A stretch of 27,010 nucleotides of DNA from a virus. The position numbers and the translations under genes are program-made. The notes under the pieces are model-generated. The model worked only from the letters and a program-made list of their open reading frames with translations, had not been told where the DNA came from and made no database searches. The stretch lies in the IMG/VR virus record IMGVR_UViG_3300044712_000320, positions 1 through 27,010 of that record; one strand, 5' to 3'. Of this stretch, positions 1,228-24,402 are shown one piece after another (position 1 is the stretch's first letter; every line of letters starts with the position of its first letter).

Positions 1228-2418
1228 ATGTCAAAACCTACGCAAAAACTAAAGGGAACTGTAACCGTCTGGAGTAATAGTCCGGGCGAGGCAACTGGTT
1301 ACGGCCAGCAAGCCGAGTATCTTGTAAATCGCCTAAAGCGTGACGGTGCGGATGTTGCCGCTTCTTCTAACTATGGTGCTGAAGGTTCGCTAAAGACTCA
1401 CAAGACACCTTATGGTGAAATCCCTGTTTACCCTCGCGGACTTGATCCTTACTCTAATGATGTTGCACCTATGCATCACGCTCATTGGAAATCTAAGAAC
1501 GCTGACCAGCCTGACACTCTAATTACGCTTTACGATGTTTGGGTGCTGAAGGGCAAGGCTTGGGATTCGATAAACATAGGTTCTTGGGTTCCTATGGATC
1601 ACGCTGGGATAACTCCAGGTGTTGAGGCTTGGATTCGTAAAGATAATGTGACACCGATTGCTATGGCTCCAAATGGTAAGCGCTTTATGGAAGCTAAAGG
1701 TATCGAGTGCGAGTATGTGCCTCATGGCATTGACACTAAGATTTTCAAACCTACTGCCAACATTCAAGGTATGCCTGTTCGCGAATTTATGGGCCTAACA
1801 GATGAGTTTGTTGTGGGCATGAACGCTGCTAATAAGTCCAGCGGTCTAATTCACCGCAAGTCTTTTTCTGAGAACTTGCTGGCTTTCTCTATCTTCCGCG
1901 AGCGCCACAAGGATGCGGTGCTTTACTTACACACAGAGCCTTTAGGTGCTGCTGGTGGTTGGAATCTTATTTCTATGCTTCAGGCTTTTGGTATCCCTAA
2001 AGAGGCTGTGATGTTTCCACCTATGGTGGATTACAAGTATGGGATGAGCCAACAGGATTTGGCTGCTCTTTATTCGGCTATGGATGTTTTGCTTGCACCT
2101 GGAATGGGTGAGGGTTTTGGCCTTCCAACTGTTGAGGCTCAGGCTTGTGGCACTAGGGTTATTGGTTCTAACTGGGCGGCTACGCCTGATCTTGTGGCTG
2201 AGGATTCTTGGCTTGTGGAAGGTCAGCCTATGTGGGATGCTGGTCAGAACGCTATTTGGACAACCCCACTTATTCCTTCGATTGTGAACGCTTTAGAGCT
2301 TGCTTATCAGGCTGAGCGTGGCCCTAGCCAGATTGCTATGGACTTTGCTAAGCAGTTTGATGTGGATACTGTTTGGGATAAGTATTGGTTGCCAGTTCTA
2401 AAGAAACTTCTAAAGTGA
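1228..2418 (+). CDS. GT-B fold glycosyltransferase (GT4-like)
   Basis: This 396-residue protein should transfer a sugar from a nucleotide-sugar donor. The N-terminal Rossmann half carries GEATGYGQQAEYLVNRL (about residues 19-35), a glycine-rich acceptor-side loop common in GT4 enzymes. VPHGIDTKIFKP (about 164-175) is the usual inter-domain motif. The C-terminal half has GEGFGLPTVEAQACGTRVIG (about 295-314), the E-x7-E donor-binding signature. Its length is typical for a complete GT4 enzyme, and no membrane segment is visible. It is the first gene of a three-gene unit whose next two members (a GT2-like enzyme and a TagD-like nucleotidyltransferase) overlap one another by a few bases. The unit sits between the capsid gene and the head-tail connector, which suggests glycosylation of virion proteins or of the host surface. 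The acceptor is unknown. Confidence 0.85.
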   Translation: MSKPTQKLKGTVTVWSNSPGEATGYGQQAEYLVNRLKRDGADVAASSNYGAEGSLKTHKTPYGEIPVYPRGLDPYSNDVAPMHHAHWKSKNADQPDTLITLYDVWVLKGKAWDSINIGSWVPMDHAGITPGVEAWIRKDNVTPIAMAPNGKRFMEAKGIECEYVPHGIDTKIFKPTANIQGMPVREFMGLTDEFVVGMNAANKSSGLIHRKSFSENLLAFSIFRERHKDAVLYLHTEPLGAAGGWNLISMLQAFGIPKEAVMFPPMVDYKYGMSQQDLAALYSAMDVLLAPGMGEGFGLPTVEAQACGTRVIGSNWAATPDLVAEDSWLVEGQPMWDAGQNAIWTTPLIPSIVNALELAYQAERGPSQIAMDFAKQFDVDTVWDKYWLPVLKKLLK

Positions 2419-3062
2419 TTCCTGTTCTGGGATTTTGCACTCTAAAGAGATTTGACCTTGCTGACCGCCTTCTTCGTTCTGTGGATTATCCTGTGGAACA
2501 TCTCGTGGTGGTGGATAATTCGGGAACTCAGTCGTGGAATCCTGTCAAGCCAGATTTGGTGCGGAATATGTGGGTTATTCGTGTGCCTTTTGGTCTTGGA
2601 CTTGTTGGTGCTTGGAATCTGATTATCAAGTCCACGCCTTATGCGCCTTACTGGGTTCTGGTCAATGATGATGCTCACTTTGAGCCAGGTGCTTTGCAAA
2701 TTGTCGCTGGTGAGGTGGATACTGAAGCTTTGAACTTTTTAGACATTGTGCCTCAATGGTCGGCTGTTGTTTTTGGCGAGGGCATGATTGACAAAGTTGG
2801 GCTTTATGATGAGCGGTTTTATCCGCTTTATTTTGATGACAACGACCTTGAGCGCCGAGTGGATAAGGCTGGTGTGCCTAAGAAAACTATTCAGGCTAAA
2901 GTGCATCACGATAACTCAAGCACTCTCAAGGCTGGGTTTGCCGAGAAGAACGCTGTCACTTATGACCGCAACGCAAAACTATTTGGCCAGAAATCAAATG
3001 AAGAAGATTATAGTCAGGGCGAGTGGACTCTAAAAACAAGAAGGGCTAACCGATGGGATTGA
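2415..3062 (+). CDS. GT-A fold glycosyltransferase (GT2-like)
   Basis: This is a compact family-2-like glycosyltransferase of about 215 residues. IPVLGFCTLKR starts the first beta-strand, VVVDNSG is the usual nucleotide-binding acidic turn, GAWNLIIKST is the helix before the DXD-type motif, and VLVNDDAHFEPGAL supplies the metal-binding Asp pair. A late DERFYPLYFDDNDLERRV resembles the catalytic ED region of GT2 enzymes. The start chosen is GTG at 2415, which overlaps the TGA of the upstream glycosyltransferase as GTGA, a classical translational-coupling arrangement. An in-frame ATG at 2385 would add ten residues that do not look like this family. It overlaps the next gene by 10 nt. Donor and acceptor cannot be deduced. 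Confidence 0.8.
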   Translation: MIPVLGFCTLKRFDLADRLLRSVDYPVEHLVVVDNSGTQSWNPVKPDLVRNMWVIRVPFGLGLVGAWNLIIKSTPYAPYWVLVNDDAHFEPGALQIVAGEVDTEALNFLDIVPQWSAVVFGEGMIDKVGLYDERFYPLYFDDNDLERRVDKAGVPKKTIQAKVHHDNSSTLKAGFAEKNAVTYDRNAKLFGQKSNEEDYSQGEWTLKTRRANRWD

Positions 3063-3490
3063 GAGTTTACACAGGCGGATCATTCGACCTTTTTCACTCA
3101 GGCCATGTTTCATTCCTAAAGCGTTGCCGAGAACTGGCAGGGTTAGATGGTGAAGTGGTTATTTCACTAAACACCGATGAGTTTATTTTGGCTTACAAGG
3201 GCAAAGGCTTGGTTATGAACTATGCCGAGCGTGAGGCTGTTCTAAAAGCGTGTCGCTATGTGGACTGGGTATTCCCTAACTATGGCGGTGCGGATAGCAA
3301 GCCAGCAATAGAAGAAGCAAACCCTGACCTTATTGTGATTGGTTCGGACTGGGCTAGGAAAGATTATTATGCCCAAATGCAGTTTGACCAAGACTGGCTT
3401 GATGAGCGCGGTATAGGCCTTTGCTACATTCCTTACACTCAGGGCATTAGCTCGACAGACATCAAAACTCGGTTGCGGTTCGAGCGGTAG
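3053..3490 (+). CDS. TagD/RfaE-type cytidylyltransferase
   Basis: This 145-residue enzyme belongs to the nucleotidyltransferase superfamily that joins CTP (or another NTP) to a phospho-alcohol or phospho-sugar. The family signature is complete: GGSFDLFHSGH (residues 8-18, with the H-x-G-H catalytic pair) and the C-terminal ISSTDIKTR (about 133-141) that binds the triphosphate. Its length matches glycerol-3-phosphate cytidylyltransferase (TagD). In this cassette it probably makes the activated donor (CDP-glycerol or an NDP-heptose-like compound) used by one of the two upstream transferases; that link is inference from gene order. The gene starts with ATG inside the end of the GT2 gene. Its TAG stop forms the first three bases of the -10 box of the following gene. 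Confidence 0.85.
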   Translation: MGLRVYTGGSFDLFHSGHVSFLKRCRELAGLDGEVVISLNTDEFILAYKGKGLVMNYAEREAVLKACRYVDWVFPNYGGADSKPAIEEANPDLIVIGSDWARKDYYAQMQFDQDWLDERGIGLCYIPYTQGISSTDIKTRLRFER

Positions 3491-3499
3491 AATTGTGTT
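3488..3499 (+). promoter_or_regulatory. Promoter for the leaderless head-tail connector gene
   Basis: TAGAAT (3488-3493) is followed by TGTGTT and then ATG at 3500, a 6-nt spacing that puts +1 on the start codon. The 17-nt string GGTAGAATTGTSTTATG recurs at 5387-5403. There is no Shine-Dalgarno sequence. Confidence 0.55.
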
Positions 3500-4099
3500 A
3501 TGGCAATCGCAAACGGATACGCAACTCTAGCCGAGGTAAAGGCTGCCCTTCGCATAAGCGACAGCATTGATGACTCGCTATTAGAAATGGCTATTGAGTC
3601 GGCTTCTCGACTGGTAGATGCTTACTGTGCGCGTTCTTTCTACAATGCCGGAACTGCTGCTCGCTACTTTGTTGCTGACAATGACTTCCTAACAAACATT
3701 GATGATGCAATCACAATTACTGAGGTTGCAACTGACACTTCTGCCGATGGCACTTATGATGTTGTATGGCAAGCAGATGACTACCAACTAGAACCCCTAA
3801 ATGGGCGTGTAGACGGCCTTGTATGGCCTTACAACGCCGTTAGAGCCATTGGTGACTACACCTTCCCAATCTGGGGTGGCGAAGCCCTTGTAAAGGTCAC
3901 AGCGACTTGGGGATTCTCAGCCATTCCAACTGCTATCAAGCAAGCCACAATCATCCAGGCCAGCCGAATCTTCAAACGCCTAGATTCACCGCTTGGTGTT
4001 CTATCAAGCCCAGACCTCGGCTTCATTCGTGTCGGCTCTCGCCTTGATCCAGATGTTTCTCAACTTGTGGATTCTTACAGGATTGTGAAGTTCGCATAG
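3500..4099 (+). CDS. Head-tail connector (HK97 gp6-like adaptor)
   Basis: This 199-residue protein resembles the adaptor that binds below the portal ring. The N-terminal half shows the usual pattern: ATLAEVKAALRISDSIDDSLLEMAIESA (28 residues; the key parts are the L-x-E-V-K helix and the D-D-x-L-L-x-x-A-I helix), then SRLVDAYCARSFY, a helix that leads into a beta insertion. Near the C-terminus PTAIKQATIIQASRIFKRLDSP is the long helix seen in gp6-like proteins. The mRNA appears leaderless. The next gene starts within its stop codon (TAGTG), so the two are coupled. Function is assigned from sequence pattern and gene order. Confidence 0.75.
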   Translation: MAIANGYATLAEVKAALRISDSIDDSLLEMAIESASRLVDAYCARSFYNAGTAARYFVADNDFLTNIDDAITITEVATDTSADGTYDVVWQADDYQLEPLNGRVDGLVWPYNAVRAIGDYTFPIWGGEALVKVTATWGFSAIPTAIKQATIIQASRIFKRLDSPLGVLSSPDLGFIRVGSRLDPDVSQLVDSYRIVKFA

Positions 4100-10311: not shown

Positions 10312-10824
10312 ATGCCAACATCTACTTACACGCCTTTGGCTAACATCACACTTGGTTCATCAGCTGCTTCTGTGACTTTCAGCAGCATCAGTCAGGCTTA
10401 CAGGGACTTAGTGCTTGTCATGTCTTTGAAGTCTGCTGCAACAGGCCCAGAAATTCCTGTCATCAACTTTAACGGTGTAACTACAACAACATACAGTTAT
10501 GTAACTGCTCAGGGTAATGGCACGACTACAAGGTCTGGTTCATATTCTCCCGATACTGGACTGTGGACTTCTGATTCTTACAACCTTGTCAGCCTTACTG
10601 ATTTTGATGCAATGGTTATCAATGTAATGGATTATTCGGCAACAGATAAACACAAAACTGCTTTGATTCGTGGCGGTTCTACTACTGCTGGAAACCCTGG
10701 TGTCACTATGACTGCTGGTCGTTGGGCTTCAACATCTGCTATTACTTCTTTGGCTGTGAATACTGCTTATAGCCGAGGTTGGGCTGCTGGGTCCACATTC
10801 AGTTTGTTTGGGGTGGCAGCATGA
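10312..10824 (+). CDS. Tail-tip beta protein, paralogue 2 of 3
   Basis: This 170-residue protein is the second member of the tandem family. It opens with YTPLANITLGSSAASVTFSS followed by ISQAYRDLVLVMSLKS, has VMDYSATDKHKTALI in the middle, and ends ITSLAVNTAYSRGWAAGSTF then SLFGVAA. It lacks the Gly/Ala-rich leader of paralogue 1. It starts two bases after the previous stop and its TGA is overlapped by the ATG of paralogue 3 (ATGA), so the three genes are translated as a coupled set. The spacing of the conserved segments is the same in all three copies. Confidence 0.6.
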   Translation: MPTSTYTPLANITLGSSAASVTFSSISQAYRDLVLVMSLKSAATGPEIPVINFNGVTTTTYSYVTAQGNGTTTRSGSYSPDTGLWTSDSYNLVSLTDFDAMVINVMDYSATDKHKTALIRGGSTTAGNPGVTMTAGRWASTSAITSLAVNTAYSRGWAAGSTFSLFGVAA

Positions 10825-11360
10825 CGATGACTTTGGTAAGCACCGTAACGGTTGGTTCTGGTGGTGCAGCAAGTATTGATTTCACATCAATTCCTCAAAC
10901 TGGAACTGACTTAGTTTTGCTTCTTAGTGGTCGCTCAACCGCTGGTAGCGGAAACGACATTGCAACACAGATAACCCTGAATGGTGTCACTACATCTTCT
11001 TATTCTTACAGGGCATTATATGGAACTGGTAGTTCTGCTTTTAGCGACTCATCAAGCGGTCAAACAGAAATCCAATCTGCCAGAATCAACGACACATCTT
11101 CAACATCTAACACCTTTGGAAATTACCAAATTTACATACCTAATTACACATCTACGACAAACAAATCCTTGTCTTTTGATGCTGTAACAGAAAACAATGC
11201 AACAGCAACCTATGGACATCTAGTAGCGGCTTCTTTCACAACAAGTTCGCCTATAACATCTCTAGCAATCAAAATTGCTGGTGGAAATAGTTTTGCCATA
11301 GGCAGCACCGCTTCTCTTTACACAATAAAAAACGGAAGTGGGGGGGCTTCGGTAGCCTAG
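10821..11360 (+). CDS. Tail-tip beta protein, paralogue 3 of 3
   Basis: This 179-residue protein starts at the ATG at 10821, chosen because it gives a 4-nt ATGA overlap and leaves the family motif at the N-terminus ([20 protein letters not shown], then [16 protein letters not shown]). A further upstream in-frame ATG at 10779 would add an unrelated stretch read inside paralogue 2. The middle [14 protein letters not shown] and the end [20 protein letters not shown] plus SLYTIKNG match the other two copies. After it comes the leaderless promoter of an HNH gene, so it is the last structural gene of this run. Confidence 0.6.
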
Positions 11361-11361
11361 A

Positions 11362-11376
11362 TGCTATAATGTAAGT
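11362..11376 (+). promoter_or_regulatory. Extended -10 promoter for a leaderless HNH gene
   Basis: TGC-TATAAT (11362-11370) is a perfect extended -10 box, followed by GTAAGT and the ATG at 11377. The 6-nt spacing places +1 at the start codon. No -35 box or Shine-Dalgarno sequence was seen. Confidence 0.65.
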
Positions 11377-12018
11377 ATGTGCATTGTAGATACTTGCGAA
11401 AAAGCAACTAAATCAAAAGGCTATTGCCAATCCCACTATCGGAATTACCGTCTTTATGGTGAACCATTAAAGACAGGCCGTAAGAAAAATTATTGTCCAA
11501 TTGATGACTGTGGTAAACCAGCTCGAGGTCAAGGCTTATGCTCAAAGCACTATAGCCGTTTATTAAGAAATGGTGACCCTACTAAAGTCACTATGGCTGG
11601 GCGAAACTCACAAGGCGAATGTCCAGTTATTGAAGACGGAGTGCAATGCCCTAATAAATTCTTGGCTAAAGGCTATTGTGGCACTCACTATAAACGCTGG
11701 CAAAAGTATGGTGACCCTTTGCTTGGTAAGCGCATCTATAACGGTGCAGCCAAGTATCGTTTCAAGATAGCGAAAAATCATCCAAATGCCAGGTCTGATG
11801 GCTCAATTATGGAACATCGCTTAGTGATGTCTGAACATATTGGTCGAGCTTTGTTGCCTCACGAAAATGTTCATCACATAAATGGCGATAGATTTGATAA
11901 CCGTATTGAGAACCTTGAATTGTGGTCACACTCACAACCTCGTGGTCAGCGTATCGAAGATAAGGTAGAATGGGCTTTAGAACTATTACAGACTTATGCC
12001 CCAGAAAAACTAAGGTAG
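11377..12018 (+). CDS. HNH endonuclease with three N-terminal zinc knuckles
   Basis: This 213-residue protein carries three repeats of a C-x4-C ... K/Q-G-Y/L-C-x2-H-Y-x-R knuckle (about residues 2-26, 40-65 and 82-110; for example [17 protein letters not shown] and [16 protein letters not shown]), presumably binding zinc and DNA. The C-terminal HNH_3-type nuclease core is [20 protein letters not shown], then [19 protein letters not shown], with the catalytic His pair in HHINGD and the Asn of DNRIENL. It has its own promoter and sits between the tail genes and a small tail-associated gene, a position typical of free-standing homing endonucleases. The same knuckle occurs in two small proteins at 21611 and 25770. 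Confidence 0.8.
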
Positions 12019-14051: not shown

Positions 14052-14402
14052 TTACTCGAACAATCGTGGCGTTGCTGTCGCTCCAAGCGCGTTGGCTTTT
14101 GCGGAAGCGTAAATAGCCTTCCTATCTGTCGGGCTTGTGCCACCCCAAACGCCATGAGCCTCGTGTGCCAAAATAGCGTAAGAGGCACATAGAGCCTTTA
14201 CAGGGCAGAAGTCGCAAATTAGTTTGGCATCCGCCTCGTTTTGCCTAATTAGCCTCATTGCAAGGCTGTCAGGCATACCCACAGGCATAGGTTCAACAAA
14301 GAATAGCCCTGAGTAGCGTTCATCCGCACATTGCGGTTCGCCTTCCATATCTGCTATGGCGTGGCTCAACTCAAGATAAGCCTTTTGTGCTTTTTTGCTC
14401 AT
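14052..14402 (-). CDS. whiB: WhiB-family iron-sulfur transcription factor
   Basis: This protein of about 116 residues is of the WhiB type, found only in actinobacteria and their phages. The four cluster ligands are C25, C63, C66 and C72 (the last three in CDFCPVKALC), and the GVWGG turn lies at residues 84-88, followed by basic residues (TDRKAIYASAKA). WhiB proteins bind a 4Fe-4S cluster and act with the main sigma factor. Phage copies can redirect host transcription, and some block superinfection. The ATG at 14402 is chosen because GAGAG lies 6 nt upstream. An ATG at 14441 would add 13 residues but has no ribosome site. It is convergent with the lysis genes and divergent from the recombination genes. 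Confidence 0.85.
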   Translation of the reverse strand: MSKKAQKAYLELSHAIADMEGEPQCADERYSGLFFVEPMPVGMPDSLAMRLIRQNEADAKLICDFCPVKALCASYAILAHEAHGVWGGTSPTDRKAIYASAKANALGATATPRLFE

Positions 14403-14463
14403 AACTTGCTCTCTGTCGGTGGGTGGGTCTATGTTAGACATTACAAGACAGGAAGGGTAATTT
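14403..14463. promoter_or_regulatory. Divergent promoter region between whiB and the exonuclease
   Basis: On the plus strand TATGTT (14429-14434) can serve as a -10 for the exonuclease, which has a strong AGGAAGGG site before ATG 14464. On the minus strand TAAATT (starting near 14465) could be the -10 for whiB. The region also separates late from early genes, so it is a likely control point. No operator repeat was recognised. Confidence 0.35.
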
Positions 14464-15345
14464 ATGCAACTACTCAATGAAAGCCTTATCACATCAGCCA
14501 CACTAATTGGCTACCTAGAAAACGGTTCTGAGGCTTGGCACTCAGCTCGCAACGAACCTGGTGCGATAGGTGGCTCGGACATTGGTGCTATCGCTGGCTG
14601 GAATCGCTGGGAATCGGCTATCAGCAAGTGGGCCAAAAAAACTGGCAAGATTGATGACCACATTGAGCCGAGTCACCGTATGCGTATGGGAACAAAGTTC
14701 GAGGATGACTTGCTGGAGATTTTCCAAGAGGATCACCCAGAACTTGAGGTTTTTACTACTGGCACTTGGGCTTCTACTTTCCAGCCTCTAAACCGCGCCA
14801 ACCCAGATGCGATTGCTATTGATGAGAATGACGAGTTGGTGCTTATTGAGGTGAAGTTCGCCGGTGACAATATGTATGAAATCCCTCAGTCTTACAAAGC
14901 TCAGATGCAATGGTATATGGGCATCTTGGGAATTAGGCGAGGCATCTTGGTTGCTTGCGCTGGCTCTAACTATGTCGAATTGCCTTTAGATTTTGATGCT
15001 TTTGAGTTTGACACTCTTTGCTTACTGGCTGACCAGTTCCGCCGCTATGTCGAGAATGACATTATGCCTGACTGGGATGGCTCAAACAGCACCTATGAAA
15101 CTATGCGAGCTTTGCACCCAGACATTGATCCAGAGGCTAGTGAGGAACTAGGCGATTTGGGGATTCACCTGTCAAACACTTATGCTGAGTTGCAAGAACT
15201 TGAAAAGAAATACAAAGAACTTCAGAGCCGAACCCTGGATGCTATGGGCAAGGCTAAATGGGGAGAAGTAGACGGCCAAAAGGTTGTTTACAGAACTGCT
15301 AGGGGTAATGGTGCGCCATACCTAGCCTTCAAGAAAGGTAAGTAA
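14464..15345 (+). CDS. YqaJ/lambda-exo family recombination exonuclease
   Basis: This 293-residue nuclease of the PD-(D/E)XK superfamily should chew one strand of double-stranded DNA so that an annealing protein can pair the exposed single strand. The family motifs are in order: AWHSARNEPGAIGGSDIGAI (about 24-43), the helix RMRMGTKFEDDLLEIF with the conserved Glu (about 73-88), ANPDAIAI (about 112-119, the catalytic Asp), LVLIEVKFA (about 126-134, the E-x-K pair), and YKAQMQWYMGI (about 146-156, the Q-x-Q-W-Y helix). A helical tail (LEKKYKELQSRTLDAMGKAK) is typical. The ATG has a near-perfect ribosome site. The putative annealing protein at 15730 is its expected partner. Confidence 0.85.
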   Translation: MQLLNESLITSATLIGYLENGSEAWHSARNEPGAIGGSDIGAIAGWNRWESAISKWAKKTGKIDDHIEPSHRMRMGTKFEDDLLEIFQEDHPELEVFTTGTWASTFQPLNRANPDAIAIDENDELVLIEVKFAGDNMYEIPQSYKAQMQWYMGILGIRRGILVACAGSNYVELPLDFDAFEFDTLCLLADQFRRYVENDIMPDWDGSNSTYETMRALHPDIDPEASEELGDLGIHLSNTYAELQELEKKYKELQSRTLDAMGKAKWGEVDGQKVVYRTARGNGAPYLAFKKGK

Positions 15346-17454: not shown

Positions 17455-17934
17455 ATGGTTTATCATACATCATTATTTCCAAGCATTACGCTTGAAGAAT
17501 TACTTGCAAATACTCGACAAACTGAAACCGGTTGTCTTGAGTGGCAAGGTAGAAAAATAAAAAACTATGGTTCAATTTCTTTCAAAGGCAAGAATCTAGC
17601 TGCTCATAGGATAAGTTGCTTCTTGGCTCATGGGGAACCACCAAAAGATAGTTTTGCCTTACACTCTTGCGATAATCCGCCTTGTATAAATCCTGAGCAT
17701 CTTCGCTGGGGAACTCATGCGGAAAATGTTTTAGATACTGTGATTAGAAATCGCCGAGCAATAAAAAGAGGCGAAAGAAATGGCAGATCTAAGTTGAATG
17801 ATGCTAGGGTTAGAGCAATCAGAGCCATTGCTGGAACTGGCCCTACTAATGGTGAAATTGCCGAGTTGTATGGAATCAGTAATCAAATGGTTTCAAGAAT
17901 CATAAAAGGGGAAGCATGGCAACACTTACAATAG
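17455..17934 (+). CDS. HNH endonuclease with C-terminal HTH
   Basis: This 159-residue nuclease has the start TGCLEWQGRKIKNYGSISFK (about 25-44), typical of the HNH_3 group, and the core AAHRISCFLAHGEPPKDSFA, then LHSCDNPPCINPEHLRWGT (about 74-92) with the catalytic His of LHSCDN and the zinc Cys/His set. The C-terminal KLNDARVRAIRAIAGTGPTN and GEIAELYGISNQMVSRIIKG form a helix-turn-helix module, as in many intron-less homing endonucleases. It has its own promoter and hairpin leader, and overlaps the methyltransferase start by 19 nt. The neighbouring split methyltransferase could be related to its arrival. Confidence 0.85.
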   Translation: MVYHTSLFPSITLEELLANTRQTETGCLEWQGRKIKNYGSISFKGKNLAAHRISCFLAHGEPPKDSFALHSCDNPPCINPEHLRWGTHAENVLDTVIRNRRAIKRGERNGRSKLNDARVRAIRAIAGTGPTNGEIAELYGISNQMVSRIIKGEAWQHLQ

Positions 17935-18518
17935 GTTCGCTATTTAGCGGATATGGTGGCTTAGATTTAGCAGTATCAAAAGTGCTAAATGCCGAGGTTG
18001 TCTTTCATTGTGAATGGGATGAAGCTCCGAGCAAAATACTTGAAAAGCATTTTCCAGGCGTTCCTAATTACAAAGATGTCAGCAAAGTTGATTGGGCAAC
18101 AGTTCCAAAGGTAGATATTTTGACTGGTGGTTTCCCTTGTCAGGATTTATCCCTTGCTGGTAAGCGAGCAGGTCTAAAAGATGGAACACGCTCAGGTTTA
18201 TGGTCTGAGTTTGCAAGAGCGATTGAAGAAATACAACCTAGATTGGTGGTTATAGAAAATGTTAGAGGAATCCTTAGTGCAACAGCCCACTCTGATTTGG
18301 AATACTGTGCGTGGTGTATGGGAGAAGCCAATGGCGAGCCTTCTTTGCGAGCATTGGGAGCTGTTCTCGGAAGCCTGGCCGACCTCGGGTATGATGCAAA
18401 ATGGGTTGGTTTACGAGCTTCCGATGCAGGAGCGCCTCACAGCAGATTCCGAATCTTTATCACAGCCACAAGAATTGATGCCGACTCCAGCAGTAGCACA
18501 CTTACGCAATCACGATGA
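17916..18518 (+). CDS. C5 cytosine DNA methyltransferase, N-terminal part
   Basis: This 200-residue protein contains the catalytic half of a C5 methyltransferase. Motif I SLFSGYGGLDLA (residues 8-19) binds S-adenosylmethionine. GGFPCQDLS (71-79) has the catalytic C75. ENVRG is at 114-118, and the HSRFRIF region (175-181) is motif VIII. Motifs IX and X, and the target recognition domain, are missing; the reading frame stops at TAG 18516-18518 after a polar tail (DADSSSSTLTQSR). Motif X is found in an overlapping ORF in the +1 frame (next entry). A strong ribosome site AAGGGGAAG precedes the ATG. It should work only together with the second part, either as a two-chain enzyme or after frameshifting, or else it is broken. 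Confidence 0.8.
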   Translation: MATLTIGSLFSGYGGLDLAVSKVLNAEVVFHCEWDEAPSKILEKHFPGVPNYKDVSKVDWATVPKVDILTGGFPCQDLSLAGKRAGLKDGTRSGLWSEFARAIEEIQPRLVVIENVRGILSATAHSDLEYCAWCMGEANGEPSLRALGAVLGSLADLGYDAKWVGLRASDAGAPHSRFRIFITATRIDADSSSSTLTQSR

Positions 18519-19134
18519 AGATTTAGATGCCTATCAAACTCGCCGTCAAGATTTCATAGATGGCAAAGTAAAAGGTATGCCAGGCGCTTCATTAGGCGTT
18601 GCAATCCGGATGAATCAGCAAGGGATAGAACCACTAAAAAGCTTGCCTACTCCTACTGTTGCTGATACCTTCACAGCCAACCTTGCAAGTTCACAACAAA
18701 AGGAAGGCTCTATGCATTCAGTTAGCCTCGCTCAAGCAGTAATTAGACCTGACTTAATGCCAACACCGACAACTCAAGATGCTAAAAATAATGGCGGCCC
18801 AAGTCAATTTGAACGCAATACAAAACCGCTAAATACCCAAGTTTTAGTTGAGTCAGAATGGGGCAAGTTTGAGCCAGCAATTCGCCGTTGGGAACAAACA
18901 CTCAGATTAGAAGCACCAGCACCAACAAAACCAGATGGTAAAGAAAATGCTCACCGTCTAAGCTCAGAGTTCACAGAGTGGATGATGGGGCTAGAACCTG
19001 GCTGGATAACAGATTGCGGACTTACACGCAATGAAGAACTAAAGGCAGCAGGAAACGGAGTTGTGCCACAACAAGCCGAACTCGCCCTAAGAATCTTGTT
19101 GGCGCAAACAGATTTCATAAACGACTTAGAATAG
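18331..19134 (+). CDS. C5 methyltransferase C-terminal part (motif X), overlapping frame
   Basis: This ORF is open in the +1 frame from 18259 (291 residues). The ATG at 18331 (267 residues) is preferred because GGAG lies 6 nt upstream, inside the N-terminal gene. The end HRLSSEFTEWMMGLEPGWIT and AAGNGVVPQQAELALRIL (motif X) is the normal C-terminus of phage Dcm-like enzymes. The middle holds repeated L-M-P-T-P / L-P-T-P segments (ELMPTPAVAH, SLPTPTVADTF, LMPTPTTQDA), also usual there. The overlapping first part (CEHWELFSEAWPTSGMMQNG and LVYELP) is itself reminiscent of a segment I know from phage methylase-associated proteins, so both frames may be under selection over this stretch. The frame change would fit a split two-subunit methyltransferase. 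Confidence 0.7.
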   Translation: MASLLCEHWELFSEAWPTSGMMQNGLVYELPMQERLTADSESLSQPQELMPTPAVAHLRNHDEDLDAYQTRRQDFIDGKVKGMPGASLGVAIRMNQQGIEPLKSLPTPTVADTFTANLASSQQKEGSMHSVSLAQAVIRPDLMPTPTTQDAKNNGGPSQFERNTKPLNTQVLVESEWGKFEPAIRRWEQTLRLEAPAPTKPDGKENAHRLSSEFTEWMMGLEPGWITDCGLTRNEELKAAGNGVVPQQAELALRILLAQTDFINDLE

Positions 19135-19170
19135 ACATTTGCAGTTGAGGTCATTTGACCGTTGGGCAAC

Positions 19171-19176
19171 TATAAA
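19171..19176 (+). promoter_or_regulatory. -10 box for the candidate noncoding RNA
   Basis: TATAAA lies 6 nt before position 19183, which is the start of the closing helix of the proposed RNA. No clear -35 box; TTGACC at 19155-19160 is too close. Confidence 0.45.
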
Positions 19177-19181
19177 ACCCT

Positions 19182-19451
19182 GCTCTCGGTTCACAGCCGG
19201 AGATATAGGCCGTTAGAAGGTGTCTATTTGGCTCACCTGTAATTGTGAAGCCTTAGATCAGGTGAAAGTTCTTGAGAGTAGAACAGAGCTTAGATTGATG
19301 TTGTTAATTCGTATCTACCTAGCAACCTAGTAATCAAATAAGCAAATGGCGTAGATAGTCGGCATCGTAAGACCCGACACATTAGAAAACCTGACAGTCC
19401 TTATACCTGTGGTTTGAGATGGTCGCATAGGCCATTTCTACCCTCGAGAGC
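19182..19451 (+). ncRNA. Candidate structured noncoding RNA (about 270 nt)
   Basis: The 348 nt between the methyltransferase and the next gene hold no convincing ORF but many stems. The ends pair over long range: GCTCTCGG (19182-19189) with TCGAGAGC (19444-19451). Internal stems are GTTCT/AGAAC (19268-19272/19280-19284), TATCTAC/GTAGATA (19312-19318/19351-19357), GTCGG/CCGAC (19358-19362/19374-19378), AAACC-TG-ACAG/CTGT-GGTTT (19387-19397/19407-19415), and GAGATGGTC/GGCCATTTC (19416-19424/19430-19438, loop GCATA). A -10 box ends 6 nt before the closing stem. I do not recognise a known family (not tRNA, tmRNA, RNase P or group I intron by motif). No terminator was seen after it. Confidence 0.55.
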
Positions 19452-19467
19452 CTTGCCCTGTGATTAG

Positions 19468-19482
19468 TGCTACCCTTGAGAA
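19468..19482 (+). promoter_or_regulatory. Extended -10 promoter for a leaderless zinc-finger gene
   Basis: TGC-TACCCT (19468-19476), then TGAGAA and ATG 19483. It has the same TGC-TAnnnT-N6-ATG layout as at 1213 and 11362, with no ribosome site. Confidence 0.45.
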
Positions 19483-19752
19483 ATGCTTGAAGAACAGTTG
19501 TTTGTGTGCCGCCGTTGTGGGTTTCAGGAGTTTGTTCCTGCTGATAAACGCAAGCGTTCTGATTCTTTGTGTGCTGATTGCCGAAGAAGGCCAGCGAAAA
19601 GTATAAATTATGGTTTGGATAAACCTTGTAAGCCTTGGTCTGGCAGTTTTGATCACAACGACAACCCGATTGAATTAGGGCATCTTTATCTACCTGGCAA
19701 GCGTGTTTGTAAGCACTCTGATTGTGTTGAGGCCTCGCACATTTTGTCTTAG
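19483..19752 (+). CDS. Small zinc-finger protein
   Basis: This 89-residue protein has C-x2-C pairs CRRCGFQEF (about 9-17) and CADCRRRP (about 30-37), a linker KSINYGLDKPCKPWSGSFDH, and the end YLPGKRVCKHSDCVEASHIL. The second half matches a pattern found in actinophage proteins of unknown role (C-x-P-W-x-G-x-F-D ... L-P-G-x-R-x-C-x-H-x-D-C-x-x-x-x-H). It is likely to bind zinc and perhaps nucleic acid. It lies between two candidate structured RNAs, so an RNA partner is conceivable, although nothing in the sequence proves it. Confidence 0.65.
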   Translation: MLEEQLFVCRRCGFQEFVPADKRKRSDSLCADCRRRPAKSINYGLDKPCKPWSGSFDHNDNPIELGHLYLPGKRVCKHSDCVEASHILS

Positions 19753-22838: not shown

Positions 22839-23104
22839 TGAGTAATCAAGAACGCAACAAAGACGCACTAATTGCTCACATACACGCACAAGACACAATC
22901 ATTCGTAATCGCAATAACCGCATTACAGAATTAGAGGCTTTGCTAAGAGGCGAAGAAGTGAAACCGTTATCGGAACAAATCCAAAAGAAAATAGATAAGG
23001 CTTACAAGTCTGGTTGGAAAGACGCTTACAGGGCTATGTCTACACGCATAAACAAGGCTTTTACTATTTACGACCTTTCTGTGCCACCAGAAAATGATAA
23101 CTAA
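22838..23104 (+). CDS. Small helical protein, unknown function
   Basis: This 88-residue protein is mostly helix with a charged coiled-coil start (DALIAHIHAQDTIIRNRNNR and ITELEALLRGEE), then KAYKSGWKDAYRAMSTRINK. ATG shares a base with the redoxin stop, and the end (TAATGG) overlaps the next start. No recognised domain. Confidence 0.6.
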   Translation: MSNQERNKDALIAHIHAQDTIIRNRNNRITELEALLRGEEVKPLSEQIQKKIDKAYKSGWKDAYRAMSTRINKAFTIYDLSVPPENDN

Positions 23105-23295
23105 TGGATACCGAATACACTAAAGGCTTTAAGGCTGGGCTTGCGTGGGAGCAGGAACGCATTATCAAGTTGCTAGAGCCACACCGAATTACAGGTAAAT
23201 CAGTTGGCGGATTTCTAGGCGTGTGTTGTTGCGGCGAGTCTATTGACGATTATCAACTGCACCTAATCGAACTTATCAAGGGAGAAACAAAATGA
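23104..23295 (+). CDS. Small ER-x-RI family protein with ELIKGETK end
   Basis: This 63-residue protein, MDTEYTKGFKAGLAWEQERI plus IKLLEPHRITGK, carries the family helix, then a Cys-rich turn (GVCCCGES) and the end LIELIKGETK. The DNA for the last residues (23263-23295) is repeated exactly at 23965-23997 and supplies the AAGGGAG ribosome site of the next gene. A 20-bp piece of the helix (23158-23177) is repeated at 24075-24094. These repeats point to recent shuffling or duplication among the small genes. Confidence 0.6.
   Translation: MDTEYTKGFKAGLAWEQERIIKLLEPHRITGKSVGGFLGVCCCGESIDDYQLHLIELIKGETK
23158..23177 (+). repeat. Direct repeat copy 1, ER-x-RI helix
   Basis: CGCATTATCAAGTTGCTAGA is identical to 24075-24094. 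It encodes R-I-I-K-L-L-E in both places. Confidence 0.8.
23263..23295 (+). repeat. 33-bp direct repeat copy 1 (ELIKGETK plus ribosome site)
   Basis: Begins CTAATCGAACTTATC and ends AAAATGA; identical to 23965-23997. It contains the end of one gene, the Shine-Dalgarno site AAGGGAG and the start codon of the next. Confidence 0.85.
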
Positions 23296-23534
23296 TTACA
23301 AGAAAAGAATACAAAGAGCTAAGCAAGGCACTTGATGATGAACGCAAGTTGGGTTATCTTGATGGTCTTGAGTCAGCAAAGGAACTCATTATCAATGCAC
23401 TGCTAGAGGAATACGGGGAACGCTTATCAGATGGTAGGCGTGTGCCAAGTATTCAGAATGAAGCACTTGATGAAGCAATCGCATTTATTGAAGAAACATT
23501 AGAAAAAGAAATCCTAGAAGGAGAAAACAAATGA
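23292..23534 (+). CDS. Small acidic helical protein
   Basis: This 80-residue protein is helical and charged (RKEYKELSKALDDERKLGYL, GLESAKELIINALLEEYGER, EALDEAIAFIEETLEKEILE). The middle LDGLESAKELIINALLEE is a loose match to the ER-x-RI helix. The ATG is served by the ribosome site inside the 33-bp repeat. Function unknown. Confidence 0.55.
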   Translation: MITRKEYKELSKALDDERKLGYLDGLESAKELIINALLEEYGERLSDGRRVPSIQNEALDEAIAFIEETLEKEILEGENK

Positions 23535-23650
23535 ACTATGAACTACTAAACCTACTTTTTGACGCATTTATCTGGATACCTATTGGCATTATGGCGATTG
23601 CATACCTTTTTGCTATTGGTATCCGTATCAAGCAAGGTAGAAATAAGTGA
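23531..23650 (+). CDS. Tiny single-TM protein (39 aa)
   Basis: The 39 residues include WIPIGIMAIAYLFAIGIRIK, a membrane segment with a basic end (QGRNK). Starts by ATGA overlap and ends by GTGA overlap, as usual in this operon. Unknown function. Confidence 0.5.
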   Translation: MNYELLNLLFDAFIWIPIGIMAIAYLFAIGIRIKQGRNK

Positions 23651-23775
23651 TTTTACTAATAATAGTTGGGGTGATTATTGTGCTGGTTTTAGTGGTTGAA
23701 GACACTTACTCTCAGCCACCAGTAAGAAAACAACGCCCACGCCCAGGAAAAGCTAAAGGTAGAAAAAGATTTTAA
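23647..23775 (+). CDS. Tiny TM protein with basic tail (42 aa)
   Basis: The 42 residues start at GTG: MILLIIVGVIIVLVLVVEDT forms a membrane segment, followed by a basic, Pro-rich tail (PPVRKQRPRPGKAKGRKRF). The tail would face the cytoplasm or bind nucleic acid. Unknown function. Confidence 0.5.
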   Translation: MILLIIVGVIIVLVLVVEDTYSQPPVRKQRPRPGKAKGRKRF

Positions 23776-23796
23776 ATCATAGAAAGAGGATAACTA

Positions 23797-23997
23797 ATGG
23801 TACTGAAGCGGTATACGCAAGAGGGTGACATGGGCGTTCCATACATGGATGAGTGCGAAGATGGCGAGTGGGTGCTTCTTGACGATGTAATCAAGTTGCT
23901 AAACACATTGGAAGGACACGATGCAATGTATAACGCTGTTGAAGGTGAGCCTGAAATGAAAACACTAATCGAACTTATCAAGGGAGAAACAAAATGA
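23797..23997 (+). CDS. Small acidic protein with ELIKGETK end
   Basis: This 66-residue protein (MVLKRYTQEGDMGVPYMDEC, WVLLDDVIKLLNTLEGHDAM) ends LIELIKGETK with the same 33 bp as the gene at 23104. DDVIKLLN is a degenerate form of the family helix. An AGAGGATAACTA ribosome site lies upstream. Confidence 0.6.
   Translation: MVLKRYTQEGDMGVPYMDECEDGEWVLLDDVIKLLNTLEGHDAMYNAVEGEPEMKTLIELIKGETK
23965..23997 (+). repeat. 33-bp direct repeat copy 2
   Basis: Identical to 23263-23295. A third, diverged copy begins at 24173 (AATCGAACTTATTAAGGGAG and so on to 24202). Confidence 0.85.
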
Positions 23998-24206
23998 CCA
24001 TTCATGAACGCATGGTTCCTAGAAGTGAGCGTGAAAAAGACTTGTTGAAGTATGGGCGTAGTCAGGAAAGGCAACGCATTATCAAGTTGCTAGAAACTGA
24101 GTTTTGTGAGCCAGAGTTTAAGGGTGATAGTTTTACGCCAGCGGATAATCTGTTGGTAAATCTAGGATTAGCAATCGAACTTATTAAGGGAGAAACAAAT
24201 GAATGA
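23994..24206 (+). CDS. Small ER-x-RI family protein with ELIKGETNE end
   Basis: This 70-residue protein has MTIHERMVPRSEREKDLLKY, then GRSQERQRIIKLLETEFCEP and the end AIELIKGETNE. It has the family helix intact and a third copy of the ELIKGET end (24173-24202), with one base changed and one A lost. It overlaps the previous gene by ATGA and the next by 8 nt. Confidence 0.6.
   Translation: MTIHERMVPRSEREKDLLKYGRSQERQRIIKLLETEFCEPEFKGDSFTPADNLLVNLGLAIELIKGETNE
24075..24094 (+). repeat. Direct repeat copy 2, ER-x-RI helix
   Basis: Identical to 23158-23177. Confidence 0.8.
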
Positions 24207-24402
24207 CTATGAAGTGCTTGATGAAGCCATTGTGCTACTAGAAACACCACACCTTGTCTGGTCTAACGACTTCGAGGCTATTCGTGACCACCTTTATTCC
24301 TTGCTAGTTAGTGAAAGAAAATCACTAGCACCACACGAAGCAACATTCGACCTAGCCAAAGAGCTACTTGACGGCTATCACAATGACTTCACGATAGGCT
24401 AA
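24199..24402 (+). CDS. Small acidic protein, unknown function
   Basis: This 67-residue protein (MNDYEVLDEAIVLLETPHLV, FEAIRDHLYSLLVSERKSLA, FDLAKELLDGYHNDFTIG) is all helix. Its ATG follows the AAGGGAG site in the third ELIKGET copy. No recognised family. Confidence 0.55.
   Translation: MNDYEVLDEAIVLLETPHLVWSNDFEAIRDHLYSLLVSERKSLAPHEATFDLAKELLDGYHNDFTIG

Follow-up and report, generated by a model that had tools for sequence, protein, structure and literature searches.

The classical RNA primer of replication is ColE1 RNA II, in which one segment (beta) pairs alternatively with two similar ones (alpha and gamma). RNA-based replication of prophages has also been reported in actinobacteriophages (PMC7157519): in the parABS mycobacteriophages Alma, LadyBird and RedRock, non-coding RNA origins are required for prophage replication. 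RNA-initiated phage replicons on record are few (PMC7157519, which mentions ColE1 RNA II as well), and none of those we found has a covariation-supported fold. Phages also carry ornate RNAs of unknown function, such as GOLLD and ROOL (PMC12286853), and RNA elements such as the HK022 put RNA, which is about 70 nt long, consists of two stem-loops and acts in cis on RNA polymerase (PMC9378689).

The window analysed here is the whole 27,010-nt stretch of the IMG/VR viral record IMGVR_UViG_3300044712_000320. A 348-nt gap (19135-19482) lies in it between a C5-methylase ORF on one side and an 89-aa zinc-finger ORF, followed by the SSB and then the RusA genes, on the other; the surroundings of the gap are recombination genes, and no tRNA gene adjoins it in the window. 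The first-pass annotation had pointed out this gap and proposed for it a new structured phage RNA of no known family, and both points held: the gap is non-coding, as no open frame is conserved among the homologues, in which the longest open stretches vary in frame and length, compensatory changes exceed those of shuffled and slid controls, and a structured RNA does exist here that Rfam does not contain. We favour, with a probability of roughly 60%, the reading that this is a free-standing, phage-specific RNA some 330 nt long, which is transcribed rightwards under a promoter of its own and stands in for a replication initiator. The elements of the locus are as follows.

19127-19132 (+): TAGAAT, candidate -10 box of the RNA's own promoter
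19143-19473 (+): the structured RNA as a whole, delimited by blastn and profile homologues and by covariation; conservation fades at about 19473-19480 on the 3' side
19143-19171 (+): helix P1 (19143-19147 with 19167-19171, and 19149-19152 with 19157-19160), 100% paired, double changes in 6 of 9 pairs
19183-19202 (+): hairpin P2 with a 7-nt loop (L2), 100% paired, with double changes
19206-19226 (+): hairpin P3 with a conserved GUUAGA-type loop, 97% paired, double changes in 3 pairs
19233-19265 (+): hairpin P4, 84% of cells paired, the inner five pairs firm
19268-19284 (+): hairpin P5 with loop UGAGAGU, 100% paired in the close set, its stem strongly varied in the divergent set
19288-19343 (+): long hairpin P6a (11 bp) plus P6b (7 bp), double changes in 10 of 18 pairs
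19312-19357 (+): pseudoknot of the P6 loop (19312-19318, UAUCUAC) with 19351-19357 (GUAGAUA), 100% paired, three double-changed pairs
19358-19378 (+): hairpin P7, outer pairs double-changed (4 of 5)
19406-19413 (+): R2, the first of two co-varying direct repeats, from the R2=R3 identity test
19416-19438 (+): hairpin P8 with loop L8, 98.9% of cells paired
19457-19464 (+): R3, second repeat copy, from the same identity test
19471-19476 (+): TACCCT, -10 box of the zinc-finger ORF, leaderless type, 6 nt before the ATG at 19483
19483-19752 (+): the 89-aa zinc-finger protein ORF, usually adjoining the RNA and outside the RNA unit (alignment A2, 101 viral relatives)

Relatives were reached in IMG/VR through SSB and the 89-aa protein, followed by motif scans and profile searches. 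By blastn, relatives share 78-90% nucleotide identity with window positions 19142-19480, and the RNA region aligns even in some whose SSB identity is only 57-58%. In total 19 distinct RNA homologues were collected, and later a 20th (G035) by profile; eight of the homologues are divergent (L005, L072, L076, L094, L096, L097, L155 and L158), L155 and L158 being the yield of one further motif scan, while another brought no additions. Every RNA-bearing sequence comes from a viral record of metagenomic origin; several of these records are incomplete, and the homologues are mutually related. A DNA search gave no match in isolated phages at the sensitivity of that search, and bacterial genomes scanned for exact motifs, a method sensitive to close relatives only, gave no true homologue. 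The nearest isolate by capsid is Pontimonas phage phiPsal1 (47%), and the start of the early region of the window carries a WhiB-like regulator (14052-14501, minus strand), which fits an actinobacterial host.

Other parts of the window also deserve mention. The C5 cytosine methylase lies in two overlapping frames (17916-18518 and 18259-19134), of which only the first has a Pfam match and the second ends with a methylase-like C-terminus; L038 shows the same split layout (2249-2818 and 2547-3608), and a programmed frameshift or a two-subunit enzyme is possible. Beside the capsid gene, the structural module (1228-3490) holds two glycosyltransferase-like proteins and a cytidylyltransferase-like protein. 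At 23104-24402 there is an array of small tandem ORFs, several with the common terminal motif IELIKGETK, within which near-identical short DNA repeats occur at 23263-23295, 23964-23997 and 24173-24207; this small paralogous or repeat-linked gene set is found in relatives too.

Helices P1 to P8 and the pseudoknot were first derived on a hand alignment, and since such an alignment leans towards its own structure, the test was made on a sequence-only MAFFT alignment of 11 sequences (A3). There, 95.6% of the cells were paired, as against 85.2% in shuffles, 32 of the 71 pairs had changed on both sides, and the covariation score was 0.390 (0.186 when shuffled); when the partners were displaced by 1-3 columns, pairing fell to 31-45%. 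Over 19 sequences, P6b was paired in 128 of 133 cells and the H-type pseudoknot in 95.5% (80% in shuffles, with a maximum of 89%). The 20th homologue, found once the structure was fixed, has P1 to P6, P8 and the pseudoknot, with new pairing sequences such as AACUAC/GUAGUU. The ratio of G·U to A·C in the helices, tallied over the 19 sequences, was 56:2, and the plus-strand transcript is therefore the selected molecule. Folding energy against shuffled sequence, one of the checks proposed beforehand, was weak when taken alone (z = -1.8; -0.9 relative to the remainder of the window) and is superseded by the covariation, the comparative structure being far beyond chance. None of the 4227 Rfam families matched the window at the gathering cut-off, and a gathering-score scan of the diverged relatives likewise gave no match.

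The comparative fold departs in several respects from the one first drawn. That stems form within the gap proved correct, and the 9-bp hairpin at 19416-19438 is P8; some of the other stems then listed were wrong. The long-range helix joining 19182-19189 to 19444-19451 shows zero compensatory changes and equals its shuffles (76.1%), its 8 pairs shrink to 5 in relatives, and its 5' strand belongs to P2. A 9-bp bulged hairpin at 19387-19415 shows no covariation and is confined to the closest relatives; L046 and L048 have lost it. The box TATAAA (19171-19176), read at first as a -10 element, is part of the RNA itself, forming the junction that follows the 3' foot of P1, with its first T (19171) still in P1; it is not a conserved promoter (TTTAAA, GTTAAG or CTAAGT, for example, in relatives), and P1, around and upstream of it, covaries perfectly. 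The proposed 5' end is wrong too, and the length of about 270 nt gives way to one of about 330 nt (19143-19473) for an RNA that has no closing terminal helix.

On either side of P8 stand the 7- to 8-nt direct repeats R2 and R3, found at the same places in all homologues, near-identical within a phage and different between phages (CCUGUG, CCGGUG, GGCUGG, CGGCAGG, CGGAUAG and CGACUG among the variants); mismatches between the two copies are often G to A. Their identity was 7.4 as against 4.8 when permuted, and none of 20000 permutations reached as high a value. Loop L8 is often complementary to both copies (P = 0.0014, uncorrected over some 51 fields and failing strict correction); a scan of loops for a partner of R2/R3 gave J1 as an uncorrected lead (P = 0.01), and a narrower scan pointed to the same regions, J1 and L8 (P = 0.005-0.025 among 153 windows). 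By analogy, we suspect an alternative pairing of L8 with R2 or R3. An operator or promoter role for the repeats was considered and rejected, as the motif does not recur as a promoter element elsewhere in the phages. Direct repeats would also suit an origin acting at the DNA level, in which the hairpins and R2/R3 would bind protein or form single-strand structures while the transcript plays no part, and such an origin would fit an exchange with initiator modules too. We nevertheless hold it to be very improbable: the excess of G·U over A·C points to selection on plus-strand RNA, the spacing between R2 and R3 is variable among the homologues, two repeats are few for iterons, and a protein to bind them is missing.

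As regards transcription, a TANNNT motif stands at the corresponding offset upstream of P1 in 15 of 19 homologous loci (the controls averaged 3 and never exceeded 8), so that TAGAAT at 19127-19132 is likely to be the -10 box of the RNA, with a transcription start expected at about 19138-19141. Judged by sequence signals, no terminator-like site follows the RNA. A search for sigma-70-like sites on both strands, antisense included, found none, the same scan having also missed the conserved -10 box. A -10 box placed 6-7 nt before the start codon is the usual spacing of leaderless transcripts. The zinc-finger ORF has TANNNT 6-7 nt ahead of its start in all 18 loci compared (the window and 17 relatives), as against 0.25% in the control, mostly without a Shine-Dalgarno-like sequence, and thus shows a conserved leaderless-type start.

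These data bear on the possibility that the RNA acts in cis, as a leader that controls the downstream genes of the early operon either by processive antitermination, as put does, or as a riboswitch. Its place at the head of the early genes, with a -10 box upstream and no terminator-like site after it, is what such a leader would show. However, a leader of the zinc-finger ORF is disfavoured, since that ORF is served by a leaderless-type promoter of its own and is often found where the RNA is missing (dozens of its relatives, indeed most, have none upstream); other genes follow the RNA in L155 and G035, known put elements are only about 70 nt long (PMC9378689), and the distribution of initiators described below would be left unexplained. 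We consider a cis leader of any kind improbable. In L155 (6361-7697) and in G035 (L170 2791-5872), the zinc-finger ORF comes before the RNA and an exonuclease-like gene lies downstream, which represents a second gene order.

A ribozyme, an intron or a guide RNA working with the zinc-finger protein might be imagined from the pseudoknotted fold and from the weak similarity of this ORF to PHROG HNH endonucleases (E = 0.002-0.05), its structure model being of low confidence (pLDDT 69). We find such a role scarcely credible, given that no group I, group II or HEARO family of Rfam matched, that the RNA is missing beside the majority of the ORF's relatives, and that L003 and L005 have nearly identical zinc-finger proteins and strongly different RNAs.

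The preferred reading, in which the RNA takes the place of a replication initiator, comes from what occupies the locus in relatives devoid of the RNA. There, the slot before the zinc-finger ORF, SSB and RusA often holds a DnaB helicase or a RepO-like initiator; the gene directly upstream of the zinc-finger ORF is often DnaB (phrog_19, E = 5e-80), a RepO-like gene (phrog_270), or a 131-aa gene, the companion that comes after RepO. Phage phiPsal1 carries RepO and a "replisome organizer" in the corresponding early region. When whole records were searched, none of the 19 RNA-bearing ones gave the phrog_270 initiator or DnaB, as against 24 and 9, respectively, of the 27 others. Primase-polymerase, DNA polymerase A, DnaC-like, Rep_3 and D5 families were absent from the RNA-bearing records as well. 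As SSB was recovered in 10 of the 19 by the same type of search, such searches do work on these records. The lone apparent exception was G035, which at first showed neither an initiator or DnaB nor an RNA beside its zinc-finger ORF; the profile then located the RNA elsewhere in it (E = 3.7e-26), after an HNH gene, like in the window. Compilation of the 46 related records gave a complete separation: (i) all 20 RNA-bearing records are without a recognisable initiator or DnaB, and (ii) all 26 RNA-less records have one (Fisher P = 1.8e-13, a value that overstates the evidence since the records are related and often incomplete).

One pair of records captures the exchange itself. L048 and L085 are 97.3% identical over the 2.8 kb before a swapped segment and 95-98% identical after it; within the segment (L048, reversed, 10555-11706; L166, 7125-9714), L048 has the RNA, the zinc-finger ORF and SSB, while L085 has a GNAT-like 205-aa gene, RepO, the 131-aa gene, a 78%-identical zinc-finger ORF and a different gene at the position of SSB. 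On the best zinc-finger ORF tree, in which these two are sisters, the state changes seven times, at least two of the changes falling on starred branches. The swap and the tree thus indicate that the RNA and initiator states replace each other as modules. GC skew gave no origin signal and was uninformative.

It is because of this mutual exclusion and of the module swap that we propose an RNA-based start of replication; the RNA probably acts in replication, as far as sequence comparison can tell. A trans-acting ornate RNA that serves infection in some other way (as a GOLLD/ROOL-like scaffold, in counter-defence or in host take-over) would also be a free-standing unit with its own -10 box and a position not tied to one neighbour, and ornate phage RNAs of no known function do exist (PMC12286853); the exclusion would then reflect linkage within the early module. 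We judge this unlikely, for it predicts neither a perfect exclusion of initiators nor an RNA at a different place in the one record that had seemed an exception. A protein initiator of an unrecognised kind could also be present in the RNA-bearing phages.

Under the proposed RNA-based start, replication in these actinobacteriophages would begin either by a protein module, namely a RepO/DnaD-like initiator with its companion or a DnaB helicase, or by the RNA. The likeliest mechanism would be an RNA-based origin: the transcript would fold into P1 to P8 with the P6 pseudoknot and, by analogy with RNA II of ColE1, might hybridise with nearby template DNA and so prime synthesis or offer the host replisome a landing site. 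In its most specific form, the proposal would be that actinobacteriophages have a new family of RNA replicators, pseudoknotted and repeatedly exchanged with RepO/DnaB modules, in which L8 pairs with one or the other of the identical R2 and R3 and thereby sets the activity, in the manner of the alpha/beta/gamma switch known from RNA II; this complete version is tentative and, in our estimation, rather doubtful.

If the main reading is true, RNA and protein would be interchangeable starters of phage DNA replication, the natural swap between near-identical phages would allow testing, the replication of these aquatic actinobacteriophages without a recognisable initiator would be explained, and a small replicon would be at hand for bacteria with few genetic tools. 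Function aside, the locus provides an RNA family outside Rfam whose pseudoknot covaries and whose two co-varying direct repeats call for an explanation.

Compared with known systems, the RNA resembles HK022 put in that both are phage RNA elements whose transcription precedes that of the early genes, but it is five times larger and pseudoknotted, and fits put neither in size nor in fold. Like GOLLD, ROOL and OLE it is phage-borne, elaborate and pseudoknotted (PMC12286853); those RNAs exceed 600-800 nt as against about 330 nt here, and the present RNA lies away from tRNA genes and has no Rfam match. With ColE1 RNA II it shares a structured transcript, its own promoter (here a candidate), the lack of a terminator, a replicon without its own initiator protein (with the caveat that RNA-bearing records may be incomplete) and, as a suspicion only, an alternative pairing (R2-L8-R3). 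Sequence and fold are unrelated as far as tested, and in contrast to ColE1, which has the antisense RNA I, no promoter-like antisense site was seen here, in a scan that also overlooked the conserved -10 box. As for the parABS non-coding RNA origins, the 26000-27500 region of Alma gave no match to the RNA profile (nhmmer), and the parABS RNA adjoins parA and is transcribed away from it, whereas the present RNA stands among recombination genes (PMC7157519). A conserved fold is not described in the accessible part of that source, while the present RNA has a covarying one; both are actinobacteriophage non-coding RNAs of a similar size class, in phages without a protein initiator (PMC7157519).
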